From positions 11,389,456 to 11,453,455 of the forward strand of contig CM043792.1 of the NCBI GenBank assembly GCA_023974075.1: a stretch of 64,000 nucleotides of DNA. Reading direction: 5' to 3'. The notes beneath the pieces are model-generated. The model worked only from the letters and a program-made list of their open reading frames with translations, had not been told where the DNA came from and made no database searches. Position numbers and translations under genes: made by a program. Source of the stretch: Chaenocephalus aceratus. Its lineage: Eukaryota > Chordata > Actinopteri > Perciformes > Channichthyidae. This document shows positions 9,959 through 62,897 of the stretch, piece by piece; the stretch's first letter is position 1, and each line of letters begins with the position of its first letter.

Positions 9959-10491
9959 TACAAATGCTAGCAGAACAAGACGACCCACCCCCATATACAG
10001 ATGTTGATGAAAATGATGAGATTGTTCAATGAATGTCCAGCTGATGTGATACTTTAAATTATGAAATCATGTGAAGAAGTGAGCAAACTAAAATGCTAAA
10101 ATGGAGTGAATCCATTTCAATTTACTTTACACTATTCCTATTATATAGGTTATTTTATTCTTTATTATTTTATACTATTCTAATATGGTAGATCTCATGT
10201 TTTATAAATCATTGCTATTCTAAAATGGTTTGTTTCTTTTCACTTTGTAAAAACAAGTGCCTTAACACTGAGCGTGATATGAGAAAGGTTTCTGTGAAAG
10301 GAGGGAGGAAGAAATGTTCTAATACCAAGCCATTGCTGCTATTTTGAAGAATGATATTGAATGTTAACACTAGAAGTTATGCACAAGGGAAAACTTTTAT
10401 GTTTGAACACAGTCAAAGTATTTTTTGCATTTTTGTAAAGTTGAGGCTATTGAACCATTCCATTTTGATTGTATGTTTTTGATATGAGTTA
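9959..10491. other. Spacer without recognised features
   Basis: AT-rich sequence between two mobile elements. I see no repeat boundary or gene. A 22-codon open stretch at 9967-10032 is too short to call. Confidence 0.6.
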
Positions 10492-10830
10492 TGACGGCCC
10501 CTAGGCCTTAGACTCAGGTCCCTGGTTAGCCACTCCCCAAATCAGGAGAGATTGCTGACACCTGATTTGGGTTGACTGCTCAGCTACAAGTATGGGTGCC
10601 TGAGCAGTCAGTCTTTCTCTCCTCTTGGGTAGCTTGGCTCTACTGGACCTTGGGTTGGGTGTGCTTTCGCTATATACTGATGCATGTTCACACACCCACA
10701 CCCACACACTACACACATAACTGATTAACTGACTTCATAGTTAATTTAGTTTCTTTAAATAAATGCACTTCAATTGGATGAATCATGTGTGGTCTCCTTC
10801 CTTTGTCCGTCCTTGAGCCAGGGCGTGACA
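10492..10830 (+). repeat. 5' LTR
   Basis: Starts TGACGGCCCCTAGG and ends GGGCGTGACA, so it has the TG...CA ends of LTRs. It carries a TATATA-like box (gctatatactg) and AATAAA (aaataaatgc), which are the expected promoter and poly(A) signals. Confidence 0.95.
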
Positions 10831-10842
10831 TGGGGGCTCGTC
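10831..10842 (+). promoter_or_regulatory. Primer-binding site, tRNA-Pro-like
   Basis: TGGGGGCTCGTC follows the 5' LTR directly. It equals the first 12 bases of the proline-tRNA primer site known from gamma-retroviruses and several gypsy/ERV families; the next bases do not match. Confidence 0.8.
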
Positions 10843-11376
10843 TAAAGTCAAAAGTCAAATTTTGACATACATTTTGTTGGTATGAATTTTCTGTGCTAAT
10901 TTAGGTTGGAGTATCACACATGGATGTAGTTGTTTTGGAGAGCTTTATTATAATCTAGTTTGGGCCAGTTTTCTTTGAGGTAAATATGCTAAATGTTTGG
11001 TGTGGCATGTGACTGGTGTTCTCCTCTGTGAGGCCAAGGAGCAGGTTCTAATAGAGAGTCTGTTGTCGGGGGTTGGGTTTAGTGTGACAGAGAAAGTGGC
11101 TAGAGCAGTTGTCTCGGGATCACGTCCATGGTTTCTTGTGGGGTTGCTGTGTATACAGTTGCTTTCCAGTGCCACTGGGTTTCAGTGAATAAATACCCAC
11201 CACAAGTATCTGTACGAAGACTAGGTACGAGTTTAGTCAGATAAGGGACATACACTAATGAGTTAGTTGAGTATGGGGAGTCACCAGTTGTTGTTGCCAC
11301 TAGTTGCATAGTGTAAAGGTTCGGTGTATGTTACCTCAATGTGGTTATCTAGGTTGCTAGATTTTTGTGGTTTGAT

Positions 11377-11571
11377 ATGGCTAACATTGTGGAAGATTTT
11401 GTTCTGTGTCCCTCGGCTGAGTTGTTGGAGCAATGTACAAAGGAGCAGTTGTTGAAGATTGCTCATTATTACTCTGTTGATTTTGATTCCAAGCAAACAA
11501 AGGAAACCCTGAAAAGTGTTTATAAAGGCTCATTTGCTAGACTGTGCGGTACTGATGGACAGGGGAGGTAA
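11377..11571 (+). pseudogene. Gag N-terminal segment, out of frame with the rest
   Basis: 64 codons from the ATG at 11377 (MANIVEDF...) contain CTKEQLLKIAHYY, a pattern common at the N-terminus of fish Gmr1-like Gag proteins. The frame stops with TAA at 11569-11571. The main Gag frame is +1 relative to this one and overlaps it from 11516. The simplest explanation is a single-base change in this copy; programmed frameshifting is a less likely alternative. Confidence 0.7.
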
Positions 11572-13207
11572 GAGCATTGTCACTAAGTATGTGTCTGGCT
11601 TGACATTTGAACAACAGAAAGAATTGTTGATTTTGAGGTTAGAACAAATGAAACTGGATTTGGAACTGCAAAAATTGGCTTTGATTAGCGCAGGTAAAAT
11701 GTCTGCATCGGCATTGAATGAGGAACTTGTAAGTTCACGCTTTGATGTTGCAAGTAATTTACTGTTGTTGCCAAAGTTTAATGAAAATGATATAGACACT
11801 TTTTTTTGTCTGTTTGAGCGTGTTGCTGATTCAAGAGGCTGGCCTGATGAGGACAGAACTTTAATGTTGCAGTGTGTGTTTACAGGTAAAGCACAAGAAG
11901 CCTACTCCGCTTTATCTTCTGATGCCTGTAAAGATTATGATACGGTGAAATCGTCTGTTTTGAAGGCTTATGAGTTGGTGCCTGAAGCGTACCGCCAACG
12001 TTTTAGAGACTGGCGAAAGAGTGGTAACAAAACACATGTGGAATTTACACGGGATTTGATCTTGCATTTCAAGTGCTGGTACTCTTCTTCTGGGGTAAAA
12101 ACATTGGATCAGTTATGTGATTTAATCATTCTGGAGCAGTTGAAACAGTCGGTCCCTGAGAACATTGCAACCTATATTAATGAACATAAAGTCACATGTC
12201 CTACGGAGGCAGCAGTACTGGCTGATGAGTATGTGTTGACGCACAGGCGCATCTTTGGTGAGCGTTATGAAAGGAATGAATCTCAGAGAGCAGGATCTTG
12301 GTCCCCAAAGTTTGCACAGCATCCTAATGGCACAAGCAATGCAAATGTGTGTAATTATTGCCATCAACAGGGTCATTGGAAAAAAGAATGTCCTTTGCTA
12401 GAGGGGAAAAGCAACAATTTTCGTGTGAAGTCAGTTGGTTTGGCTACAACTGTTCATAATCCCAGAGTTGGTGAAACAGAAGTCTTGGCTCCATTGCAAA
12501 TGCAGGGTAAGGCAATTGATATCTCAGAGGTTGAGTCGGGTTATGCTTCGTTTATGTCTGACGGTTTCGTAACCCTAGTTGGGAGTGACAAGAAAGTTCA
12601 AGTCAGGATTTTGAGGGACTCAGGCGCTTTGAATACTTTGGTGAGGGAGGCCATCTTGCCTTTTTCTCCAGATTCAGACACGGGGCGCTGTGTTCCAGTC
12701 AGAGGGATTGGTCTGCAATCCATTTCTGTGCCTGAGCATAAACTGTTTCTGTCCTGTGATTTGGTCCAGAGAGAAGTGGAGGTTGGTGTTCGTCCAGAGT
12801 TGCCCGTGACTGGAGTGGACATCATTTTGGGAAATGACCTGGCAGGTGGTCGTGTTTGGCCAGATCATGCAAAGCCATTCAGGGGTAACAAAATAAACAT
12901 TGAAGGAAAGAGTTTTCATGTTAGAGGCGAGGACTGGTTTTGTACTGATAAGTGTGGAATGATGAACTTTGCTAGAAGAAGCAGTTGTTACAGATGTGGC
13001 AGGAAGAAACCCATGAGGGCACAGATGATGAAAGCTGGAGGAACAGATAGTTGGAAAACTCTGGCTGGGAAGAGCAGGGGTCTCTTCAGTGTATATGATT
13101 GGAAGTGCAATACATGTGGCAATGTCAATTGGGCTAGAAGGTCAGAGTGCAACATTTGTAACACACGGAAGTATGTGAAAGAGAGCTACAGTAACCTCTT
13201 TGGATAA
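11516..13207 (+). CDS. Gag-protease protein fused to ZRANB2 zinc fingers
   Basis: 563-codon frame; the first ATG at 11516 is probably not the native start because the Gag N-terminus lies upstream in another frame. Order of parts: basic/helical region; SCAN-like capsid from about residue 88 to 245 (FFCLFERVADSRGWPDEDR, LVPEAYRQRFRDW, ATYINEHK, EAAVLADEYVLTHR); CCHC zinc knuckle at 279-292 (CNYCHQQGHWKKEC); retropepsin-like domain with the active-site triad as DSG at about 367-369 (RDSGALNTLV) and a later IILGNDLAGG; then from about 463 to 553 a segment that follows ZRANB2, starting GKSFHVRGEDW, with two RanBP2-type fingers. The SCAN-like capsid plus this protease is typical of Gmr1-like gypsy elements, from which the vertebrate SCAN domain is thought to descend. 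The usual polymerase is replaced by the captured piece. The frame is open to the end. Confidence 0.9.
   Translation: MFIKAHLLDCAVLMDRGGKSIVTKYVSGLTFEQQKELLILRLEQMKLDLELQKLALISAGKMSASALNEELVSSRFDVASNLLLLPKFNENDIDTFFCLFERVADSRGWPDEDRTLMLQCVFTGKAQEAYSALSSDACKDYDTVKSSVLKAYELVPEAYRQRFRDWRKSGNKTHVEFTRDLILHFKCWYSSSGVKTLDQLCDLIILEQLKQSVPENIATYINEHKVTCPTEAAVLADEYVLTHRRIFGERYERNESQRAGSWSPKFAQHPNGTSNANVCNYCHQQGHWKKECPLLEGKSNNFRVKSVGLATTVHNPRVGETEVLAPLQMQGKAIDISEVESGYASFMSDGFVTLVGSDKKVQVRILRDSGALNTLVREAILPFSPDSDTGRCVPVRGIGLQSISVPEHKLFLSCDLVQREVEVGVRPELPVTGVDIILGNDLAGGRVWPDHAKPFRGNKINIEGKSFHVRGEDWFCTDKCGMMNFARRSSCYRCGRKKPMRAQMMKAGGTDSWKTLAGKSRGLFSVYDWKCNTCGNVNWARRSECNICNTRKYVKESYSNLFG
12901..13182 (+). 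other. Captured host ZRANB2 segment (two RanBP2 zinc fingers)
   Basis: Finger 1: WFCTDKC, then NFARRSSCYRCG. Linker: MMKAGGTDSWKTLAGKSRGL. Finger 2: DWKCNTCGNVNWARRSEC, then NICN. In order, spacing and wording this is the N-terminal region of vertebrate ZRANB2 (from about codon 3 to 75), a splicing factor that binds GGU in single-stranded RNA. The piece runs without introns, which in the host gene would be expected within this span, so it came from a spliced RNA. Finger 2 keeps the Trp-Ala-Arg-Arg and Asn residues known to contact guanines. Finger 1 has C-X3-C where ZRANB2 has C-X4-C. The RS tail of ZRANB2 is absent. Confidence 0.92.
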
Positions 13208-13524
13208 GATGGGGCAGGCAAGGGGAGCTTCGTCCCAGTCTTCTTGAAATGTTGGCCGTACAGGCATTCCCTGTTTCGTCCACTAAGCAGCAGTAGTTGC
13301 TTTTCCTGGGGTTAGGCTATAATGATTGCAGGTTTTGTGCAAATTTCGGTAGTCACCTCAGGTACTTTTTGTCTTAGTTCCTTCTTTGCCTAGTATCACT
13401 TTTGATAGGCTTATAATGCAGTTTGTATGTGCTCTGAGACGTGTTACTCGGTTTTATGAATTGGAAGAAAATGTTGTCTAATATTCTTGTTTTGTTTCAG
13501 GATCTGAGGTGCTACCTCATTCTT

Positions 13525-13537
13525 AAGGGGGGAGGTG
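13525..13537 (+). promoter_or_regulatory. Polypurine tract
   Basis: AAGGGGGGAGGTG lies directly upstream of the 3' LTR, in the position expected for plus-strand priming. Confidence 0.85.
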
Positions 13538-13866
13538 TGACGGCCCCTAGGCCTTAGACTCAGGTCCCTGGTTAGCCACTCCCCAAATCAGGAGAGATTG
13601 CTGACACCTGATTTGGGTTGACTGCTCAGCTACAAGTATGGGTGCCTGAGCAGTCAGTCTTTCTCTCCTCTTGGGTAGCTTGGCTCTACTGGACCTTGGT
13701 TTGTTTGTTCTTTTGCTATATACTGATGCATGTTCACACACACACCCACACACTACACACATAACTGACTTCATAGTTAATTTAGTTTCTTTAAATAAAT
13801 GCACTTCAATTGGATGAATCATGTGTGGTCTCCTTCCTTTGTCCGTCCTTGAGCCAGGGCGTGACA
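13538..13866 (+). repeat. 3' LTR
   Basis: Same sequence as the 5' LTR apart from scattered changes and a missing octamer around 13768. It has the same TGACGG...GTGACA ends. Confidence 0.95.
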
Positions 13867-15650: not shown

Positions 15651-15689
15651 TGGTTTACAATACCTGAACCGTAGCGTCCAGTTAGCTTG

Positions 15690-16065
15690 GCCACTGGCTT
15701 AGCGATAAATACACACAGCATTGTATTCTCCTCCCCCTGTCGGCCCTAAAAGCTTCAGAGGGTGGATACATGAGCTCCACAGCGTCCCGCTAATGTGAAA
15801 CACAGCGTTAGCGGGACATTCTCCTCCCCCTGTCGGCCCTTAAAGCTTCAGAGGGCGGATAGCTGGGCTCCGTAGCGTCCAGCTAGTTTAGCCGCTAGCT
15901 TAGCGATAAATACACGCAGCGTTGTATTCTCCTCCCCCTGACGGCCCTAAAAGCTTCAGAGGGCAGATACCTGAGCTCCATAGCGTCCCGCTAATGTGAA
16001 ACACACACACACAGCGTTAGCGGGACATTCTCCTCCCCCTGTCGGCCCTAAAAGCTTCAGAGGCA
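15690..16065. repeat. Tandem repeat of TCCTCCCCCTGTCGGCCCT units
   Basis: The string ctcctccccctgtcggccct followed by aaaagcttcagagg occurs four times (about 15729, 15821, 15929 and 16030). Two alternating spacers separate the copies: one has gcgataaatacac and the other has gcgttagcgggac. Confidence 0.85.
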
Positions 16066-16224
16066 GGGCCGGACTGGGACAATAAGTCAGGCCGGGAATT
16101 ATATACCCAGCCAGGCCACTACCAGTTTTTTGTGCCATTTTGCTGGATTTATTTGTCAATATTTACAGCGTTGCTGCCCATAGTGATGATAGCCCTAGTT
16201 GAAATCTACTACCCAATAATAAAC

Positions 16225-51544: not shown

Positions 51545-62897
<11,353 letters not shown>

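Follow-up and report, generated by a model that had tools for sequence, protein, structure and literature searches.

How does the Gag-protease frame of a fish LTR retrotransposon come to end in the RNA-binding zinc fingers of a host splicing factor, and what might the fingers do there? The question is raised by a 64,000-nucleotide stretch of the Chaenocephalus aceratus genome (contig CM043792.1, positions 11,389,456 to 11,453,455), hereafter the window. Herein, an earlier note, made from the letters alone, had described a single frame leading from a SCAN-like capsid domain through a CCHC knuckle and a protease into two RanBP2-type fingers like those at the N-terminus of ZRANB2. The frame and its Gag-protease parts are as follows.

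11516-13207, plus strand: Gag-protease-ZRANB2 finger open frame, 563 aa, open for 563 codons
11380-11568, plus strand: Gag N-terminal piece of 63 codons in another frame, starting at the ATG at 11380 and terminated by a stop
11981-12244, plus strand: SCAN domain (Pfam PF02023, 8.3e-13)
12347-12394, plus strand: CCHC zinc knuckle CNYCHQQGHWKKEC (Pfam, 16.1 bits, under the cut-off of 20.8)
12533-12865, plus strand: retropepsin domain with approximate limits, ending near ILGNDLAGGRVWPD (DSG active site and model matches)

The single frame was borne out by its 563 codons, by Pfam and by a predicted model, whereas the N-terminal piece of Gag lies outside that frame in the window copy. A stop at 11569-11571 ends the piece starting at ATG 11380, and since this piece is both out of register with the long frame and cut short, the Gag of the window copy is broken near its start. 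The SCAN domain has been described as the capsid C-terminal domain of Gmr1-like Gag, the DSG motif of the protease reads LRDSGALNT, and two RanBP zinc-finger stretches were detected in the 563-aa frame (Pfam, 1.3e-7). The predicted model of the 563-aa protein was weak (mean pLDDT 60.5) and poor in its finger part (mostly pLDDT below 50), and conclusions were taken from the protease part alone; compared with solved structures, the model gave 40 matches at E values up to 0.001, consisting of retroviral proteases and DDI-type relatives.

The finger module that follows the protease comprises the following features.

12932-12997, plus strand: ZRANB2 zinc finger 1, with one Lys fewer than the host (structure-sequence match and host alignment)
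12998-13096, plus strand: ZRANB2 linker GRKKPMRAQMMKAGGTDSWKTLAGKSRGLFSVY (amphioxus and host alignment)
13097-13159, plus strand: ZRANB2 zinc finger 2, with the D, N, W, R, R and N positions kept (sequence match)

The order of the fingers and their linker were confirmed as those of the ZRANB2 N-terminus by an amphioxus alignment, by solved finger structures and by the host gene. The best solved structures for the finger region were ZRANB2 finger 2 (7.5e-12) and finger 1 (1.6e-9), and amphioxus ZRANB2 (P0121) was aligned at 52% identity over 99% of the finger query, linker included. When 5.8 billion proteins were searched with the finger region, the sister fusion P0001 came up ahead of four ZRANB2 proteins from amphioxus. 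Vertebrate ZRANB2 was absent from the protein matches, teleost proteins being plentiful in the same database, and the vertebrate donor sequence was therefore drawn from the genome itself. The region bears the eight Cys and the linker of the ZRANB2 module and has ZRANB2 as its top match; the objection that its best matches might belong to a non-ZRANB2 family has thereby fallen away. Another RanBP2-finger donor was rejected, as RBM10, RBM5, FUS and Nup153 score below ZRANB2. A viral contig (L001) gave a short match of 21 residues.

The host ZRANB2 gene was located in the same genome from two finger match rows (L054, contig C4). Its exons 1-5 begin MSGKSFRVSDGDWICPDKKCGNVNFARRTSCNRCGSEKTTEAKMMKAGGTEIGKTLAEKSRGLFSANDWQCKTCGNVNWARRSECNMCNTPKYAKLEERTGYGGGFN, and in the homologous stretch it contains GT-AG introns of 673, 99, 212 and 78 nt. 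The element frame crosses the first three host exon junctions without any intron trace. The fourth host intron is missing from an old, interrupted copy, L055 (C13:11306000-11315900, about 80% identical), which keeps more ZRANB2 than the young copies and in which ZRANB2 sequence spans the fourth exon junction, ERTGYGGCFNKRE. Three further features mark the edges of the capture in the window.

12870-12898, plus strand: 5'UTR taken over from ZRANB2 and today read as in-frame coding sequence (host alignment)
12899-12901, plus strand: ATT in place of the host ZRANB2 start codon (host alignment)
13181-13207, plus strand: C-terminal tail ESYSNLFG-stop, past the present ZRANB2 3' break (comparison with L055)

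Within the 25 nt directly upstream of the host ATG, the element matches the host at 19 positions, and within 29 nt at 20, with agreement at chance level beyond; among 63,971 offsets of the window, only that of the capture site itself attains 20/29. Because of this 5'UTR homology, the peptide KPFRGNKINI before the fingers is read as mostly translated 5'UTR. Of 47 copies searched, 38 yielded the motif around the former start codon, and every one of them reads ATT there. Both fingers, the linker and the end of the 5'UTR are thus common to the host gene and the element, whereas the latter lacks the start codon, one Lys and the RS region, has 28 of 93 residues changed and is fused to Gag-protease. 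On the 3' side, L055 holds 99 nt between two AAGAGAG repeats that are missing from the window copy, and the present C-terminus is therefore likely to stem from a deletion between these short repeats.

Intron loss and the retained 5'UTR provide strong evidence, at the level of sequence, for a spliced ZRANB2 mRNA as the donor, which upholds the earlier proposal that a spliced ZRANB2 transcript had been transduced. In the events envisaged, ZRANB2 mRNA would have been co-packaged into a particle, and reverse transcription would have jumped to it at a point about 25-29 nt before the ATG, leaving it again within exon 5 or farther on. The pol region would have been lost at the site of ZRANB2 insertion, and the 99-nt deletion between the AAGAGAG repeats would later have shortened the ZRANB2 tail. 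We infer template switching in reverse transcription as the capture route, which agrees with the mechanism as given in excerpts of a review (PMC13317346).

The fusion is carried by an LTR element at window positions 10490-13866, with LTRs, a primer-binding site and a polypurine tract.

10490-10830, plus strand: 5' LTR (LTR alignment and comparison of copies)
10831-10842, plus strand: primer-binding site TGGGGGCTCGTC, abutting the 5' LTR
13525-13535, plus strand: polypurine tract AAGGGGGGAGG, adjoining the 3' LTR
13536-13866, plus strand: 3' LTR (LTR alignment and LTR search of the genome)

The marks of an LTR retrotransposon are present, namely TG..CA LTRs, a primer-binding site at the 5' LTR and a polypurine tract at the 3' LTR. 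The primer-binding site, which we take to be of the tRNA-Pro type, has the identical 12 bases in 21 of the 24 copies with two LTRs (L027, L031 and L033 differ). When 10492-10830 and 13538-13866 of the window copy were aligned, the two differed by 5 substitutions over 329 positions, with 2 gaps; from the other copies, the true LTR start was placed 2 nt upstream of the aligned 10492, at TGTGACGG. The matching LTR pair reported earlier was thus recovered, but comparison of its flanks gave no exact target-site duplication for the window copy, and its 5' LTR edge bases are TA, as against TG in the other 23 two-LTR copies.

In the genome (1.06 Gb), 65 finger match rows were found, which manual grouping assigned to the host gene and to 53 element loci, or about 50 loci after three probable duplicate pairs. 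Identical 5' flanks are seen in L037/L038 and in L023/L051; L049/L050 resemble a duplicated stretch, for which direct comparison at one offset failed. Copies were fetched for 47 of the 53 loci and for L055. The protease adjoins the fingers in 46 of the 47 fetched copies (L060 is the exception), and it follows that the fusion spread as an element. LTR counts cover the 24 of 47 copies in which both LTR ends could be placed, the other 23 being left out. Exact 4-bp target duplications flank 16 of these 24 copies, presupposing the LTR start TGTGACGG, and are missing from eight, including the window copy; the count becomes 14 of 22 if one member of each of the two identical-flank pairs is dropped. 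The distance between the LTRs of the 24 pairs ranges from 0 to 6%, with a median of 0.9% and a lowest value of 0/351. At ten other loci, an open frame of 611-623 codons covers the fingers, in one case with an in-frame gap. An LTR search of the genome yielded 40 scored matches from 215 candidates, and about 14 of these, lying away from any finger match, may be solo LTRs. In one copy (L059), short tandem repeats have expanded internally, once in gag and once in the protease region.

The same fusion is also found in P0001, a protein from another source (529 aa, 96% identical, four member sequences, on a 3344-nt contig). At two neighbouring finger positions, host ZRANB2 and P0001 have TT, while the genomic copies have P in 26/28 and M in 28/28. 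Because TT is shared with host ZRANB2, P0001 either branches early or stems from a related species.

These copies bear on two alternatives. An artefact of assembly or annotation, for which the window copy without an exact target duplication might speak, is refuted by many copies on different chromosomes and by the protein from another source, and its probability is negligible. In the same way, the fear that the fusion existed in one copy only, through assembly error, was laid to rest by the roughly 50 loci and P0001. The persistence of open frames at ten loci would suit domestication as a host gene, or the landing of a ZRANB2 retrocopy in an LTR element; this explanation is nevertheless very improbable, being refuted by a copy structure of about 50 dispersed loci, many of them with LTRs, primer-binding site, polypurine tract and target duplications, and by the protease adjoining the fingers in 46 of 47 copies.

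What the element lacks is equally defining. No pol frame lies between the LTRs of the window copy, and the integrase upstream of reverse transcriptase by which Gmr1 elements are recognized is not present. With the Gmr1-like Ty3/gypsy elements of vertebrates it shares the SCAN-type Gag, the CCHC knuckle and the retropepsin, but it has neither integrase nor reverse transcriptase and carries ZRANB2 fingers after the protease instead. Since pol is missing, it is regarded as a non-autonomous Gmr1-like relative and not as a complete Gmr1 element. The suggestion that the fingers had replaced the polymerase fits both the absence of pol between the LTRs and the relatives with integrase or reverse transcriptase after the protease.

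Candidate helpers were sought among gag-protease relatives. In the genome, 153 gag-protease matches were obtained (from 150 scored of 843 candidates). Among the matches listed, all those with at least 72% identity adjoin fingers, except two rows of L063. This locus is a broken copy in which the fingers begin and then break off after a solo-LTR-like insert, and it was rejected as a finger-less gag-protease copy because the fingers begin before the break. The insert (L063:668-953) starts TGTGACGGCCCC and is flanked by GGGG; its first bases are those of the element LTR and the rest is different, and it may be the LTR of a related family that possibly serves as helper. The next gag-protease matches listed have 40-60% identity and frames of up to 1560 aa. 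One relative of about 50% identity, L064, carries an integrase before reverse transcriptase and RNase H in one 3.1-kb piece, and integrase before reverse transcriptase is given as the Gmr1 order in excerpts of PMC2774666. Among proteins, 1116 gag relatives were found; all 120 listed carry PF02023, and the named ones are teleost proteins. They include two finger-less relatives from other fishes that are closer than the pol-bearing ones of the genome, one from Myripristis (P0002, 71% over 89% of the query) and one from Collichthys with a reverse transcriptase (P0005, 76% over 50% of the query). In the contig pattern search, no relative was present among 40 pattern matches. A Merluccius protein (P0044) combines a SCAN Gag with a long foreign C-terminal half, to which no Pfam family was matched, and is maybe a gene-model chimera.

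Altogether, we favour, with a probability of about 0.6, a polymerase-less Gmr1-like LTR element that carries the fingers of a spliced ZRANB2 as an extra RNA-binding arm of its Gag and is helped in trans. The element likely spreads with the reverse transcriptase and integrase of related Gmr1-like elements, and its mode of life would be that of a satellite LTR element. Against this reading, gag-protease identity to the pol-carrying relatives detected in the genome amounts to only about 50%. Gag would grip RNA by its CCHC knuckle and by a second, sequence-preferring grip of the fingers, and the likely benefit would be the loading of its own RNA into shared particles or the shielding of this RNA from splicing. 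In excerpts on the Cer1 element, a retroelement protein is required to export unspliced genomic RNA (PMC10309623); by analogy, this would show that such a need for RNA export exists, not that a finger fusion meets it.

The binding preferences of the fingers can be predicted from their contact residues. In excerpts of work on ZRANB2, a splicing factor, each finger binds GGU; in finger 2, contact with the second G is made by an aspartate, the U is recognized by two asparagines and a tryptophan stacks, and fingers without both asparagines accept any third base (PMC6384913). In the element, D, N, W, R, R and N are retained in finger 2, which is predicted to prefer GGU, while finger 1 has M and Y for the asparagines, the N14/N24 of PMC6384913 having been placed on the element positions by inference. 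Because both U-reading asparagines are replaced, finger 1 is predicted to be GGN-tolerant. As a simple cis-target signal, GGU enrichment was looked for in the element RNA and not found: against shuffled sequence, the counts were 17 vs 19.2 in the leader and 28 vs 28.5 in gag-protease, the fingers and 3' region lay under expectation, and the LTR count of 7 vs 5.5 was not unusual.

The fusion could also act on host RNA, by occupying 5' splice sites or competing with ZRANB2, and thereby favour the element or dampen splicing-linked silencing; we consider this improbable. GGU marks 5' splice sites and the contact positions of finger 2 are kept, but the RS region of ZRANB2 lies outside the fusion and Gag would be mainly cytoplasmic. 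The identity of ZRANB2 as a splicing factor with GGU-binding fingers, as excerpted from PMC6384913, speaks for such an action as well.

Selection on the fingers was assessed at two time scales. Between host and element, pS was 0.525, pN 0.148 and dN/dS 0.18 (medians over 28 copies and 93 codons), a ratio that mixes the host and element branches and would be less meaningful if the donor were the ZRANB2 of another species. Since the host branch is taken to add silent changes and few replacements, the element's own dN/dS would lie above 0.18. The 28 copies are the 47 minus four with less than 90% coverage and minus 15 of the remaining 43 with frameshifts; in 12 of the 28, codon 0 was scored as a gap where local alignments ended. 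In the window copy, the 28 of 93 finger residues changed relative to the host spare all eight Cys and all six finger-2 contact positions (chance 0.004); for the eight Cys alone, the chance is 0.05.

Among recent copies, neither shared variants nor pairwise dN/dS gave clear constraint on the fingers. Finger variants common to at least two copies comprise 13 nonsynonymous and 3 synonymous changes (pN/pS 0.95), compared with 18 to 10 in the protease (0.55) and 10 to 7 in gag (0.39), differences from the fingers that are not significant (p 0.31 and 0.26, respectively). Pooled pairwise dN/dS was 2.3 for the fingers (19 copies) vs 0.51 for the protease. After MAFFT realignment, from which the frameshift and variant counts derive, frameshifts were present in 15/44 finger, 16/40 protease and 15/38 gag copies, leaving 29, 24 and 23 frameshift-free, and two more finger copies contained a stop. 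The comparison of dN/dS over the fingers that had been proposed earlier thus points to conservation between host and element (0.18), but recent variation bears no sign of strong constraint.

It is on this evidence that a further explanation turns, namely that the capture is real and the fingers are passengers of a template switch that destroyed pol, kept by helpers indifferent to their function. A finger pN/pS near 1 in recent copies, the lack of GGU enrichment in the element RNA and the 15 of 44 aligned finger copies with frameshifts, along with the two with a stop, are what it would lead one to expect. Nonetheless, we hold it to be rather unlikely: the frame stayed open through 28 changes that kept the eight zinc ligands and the finger-2 contacts (p 0.004), dN/dS against the host is 0.18, P0001 from another source keeps the frame, and a second family has an RRM at the equivalent place. 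Because protease and gag copies carry frameshifts too, decay is not special to the fingers. Function of the fingers since capture, within an element whose Gag they would equip with an added RNA-binding arm, is therefore the likely reading of these sequence comparisons.

The second family is represented by P0077, also from another source (834 aa, 11 member sequences), in which a SCAN Gag-protease is followed by an RRM (PF00076, 4.6e-16). The best PDB matches of this RRM are hnRNP D-like, a yeast polyadenylated-RNA-binding protein and hnRNP A/B. P0077 belongs to the same Gag family and likewise has a host RNA-binding domain after the protease; it differs in its RRM of hnRNP A/B/D type, from another donor family, and is known from protein alone. 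By precomputed Pfam assignments, P0001 and P0077 are the two of the 120 listed gag relatives (of 1116) with a host-type RNA-binding domain, and PF16588 occurs in three more of the 120. No full-length match to the RRM piece was found in the genome; its 29 rows (best 73% over 60/83 residues) are taken as host hnRNP exons. P0077 suggests that capture of a host RNA-binding domain happened more than once. A broader proposal, offered as a tentative possibility, is that fish Gmr1-like elements repeatedly swap their polymerase for a host RNA-binding domain and become satellites that win packaging in helper particles by means of stolen sequence-reading domains.

Host sequences within LTR elements have several precedents. 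Maize Bs1 is not known to carry a reverse transcriptase and has a low copy number. It is among the first LTR elements with transduced host genes and, like the element described here, contains transduced host gene segments (excerpts of PMC13317346), but Bs1 is a plant element with enzyme fragments, whereas an RNA-binding module at about 50 loci is found here. In addition, plant LTR elements of rice and sorghum with captured genes between their LTRs (PMC3726574) and zebrafish LTR pairs whose internal parts were replaced by host genes (PMC8672886) have been reported; as excerpted, these cases concern host genes inside elements, which differs from a whole family with a host domain fused to its Gag-protease frame. 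Among the matches listed from open-licence PubMed Central, no described fusion of Gag-protease with a host splicing-factor RNA-binding domain spread over about 50 loci was found.

The locus offers a clear case of an LTR element that has spread while bearing, within its Gag frame, a domain of a host splicing factor, and a single genome shows the donor gene together with the loss of its introns, the retained 5'UTR and an intermediate copy. It makes Gag's choice of RNA, and the swapping-in of sequence-specific host domains, testable, and the RRM fusion, as a second case, suggests that this route recurs.

Elsewhere in the window, a long RSREKR-repeat frame with an RS-like tract lies at 53317-53895, where overlapping frames occur on both strands. 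Furthermore, repeats of 68 and 136 nt in several registers occupy 15669-16094.
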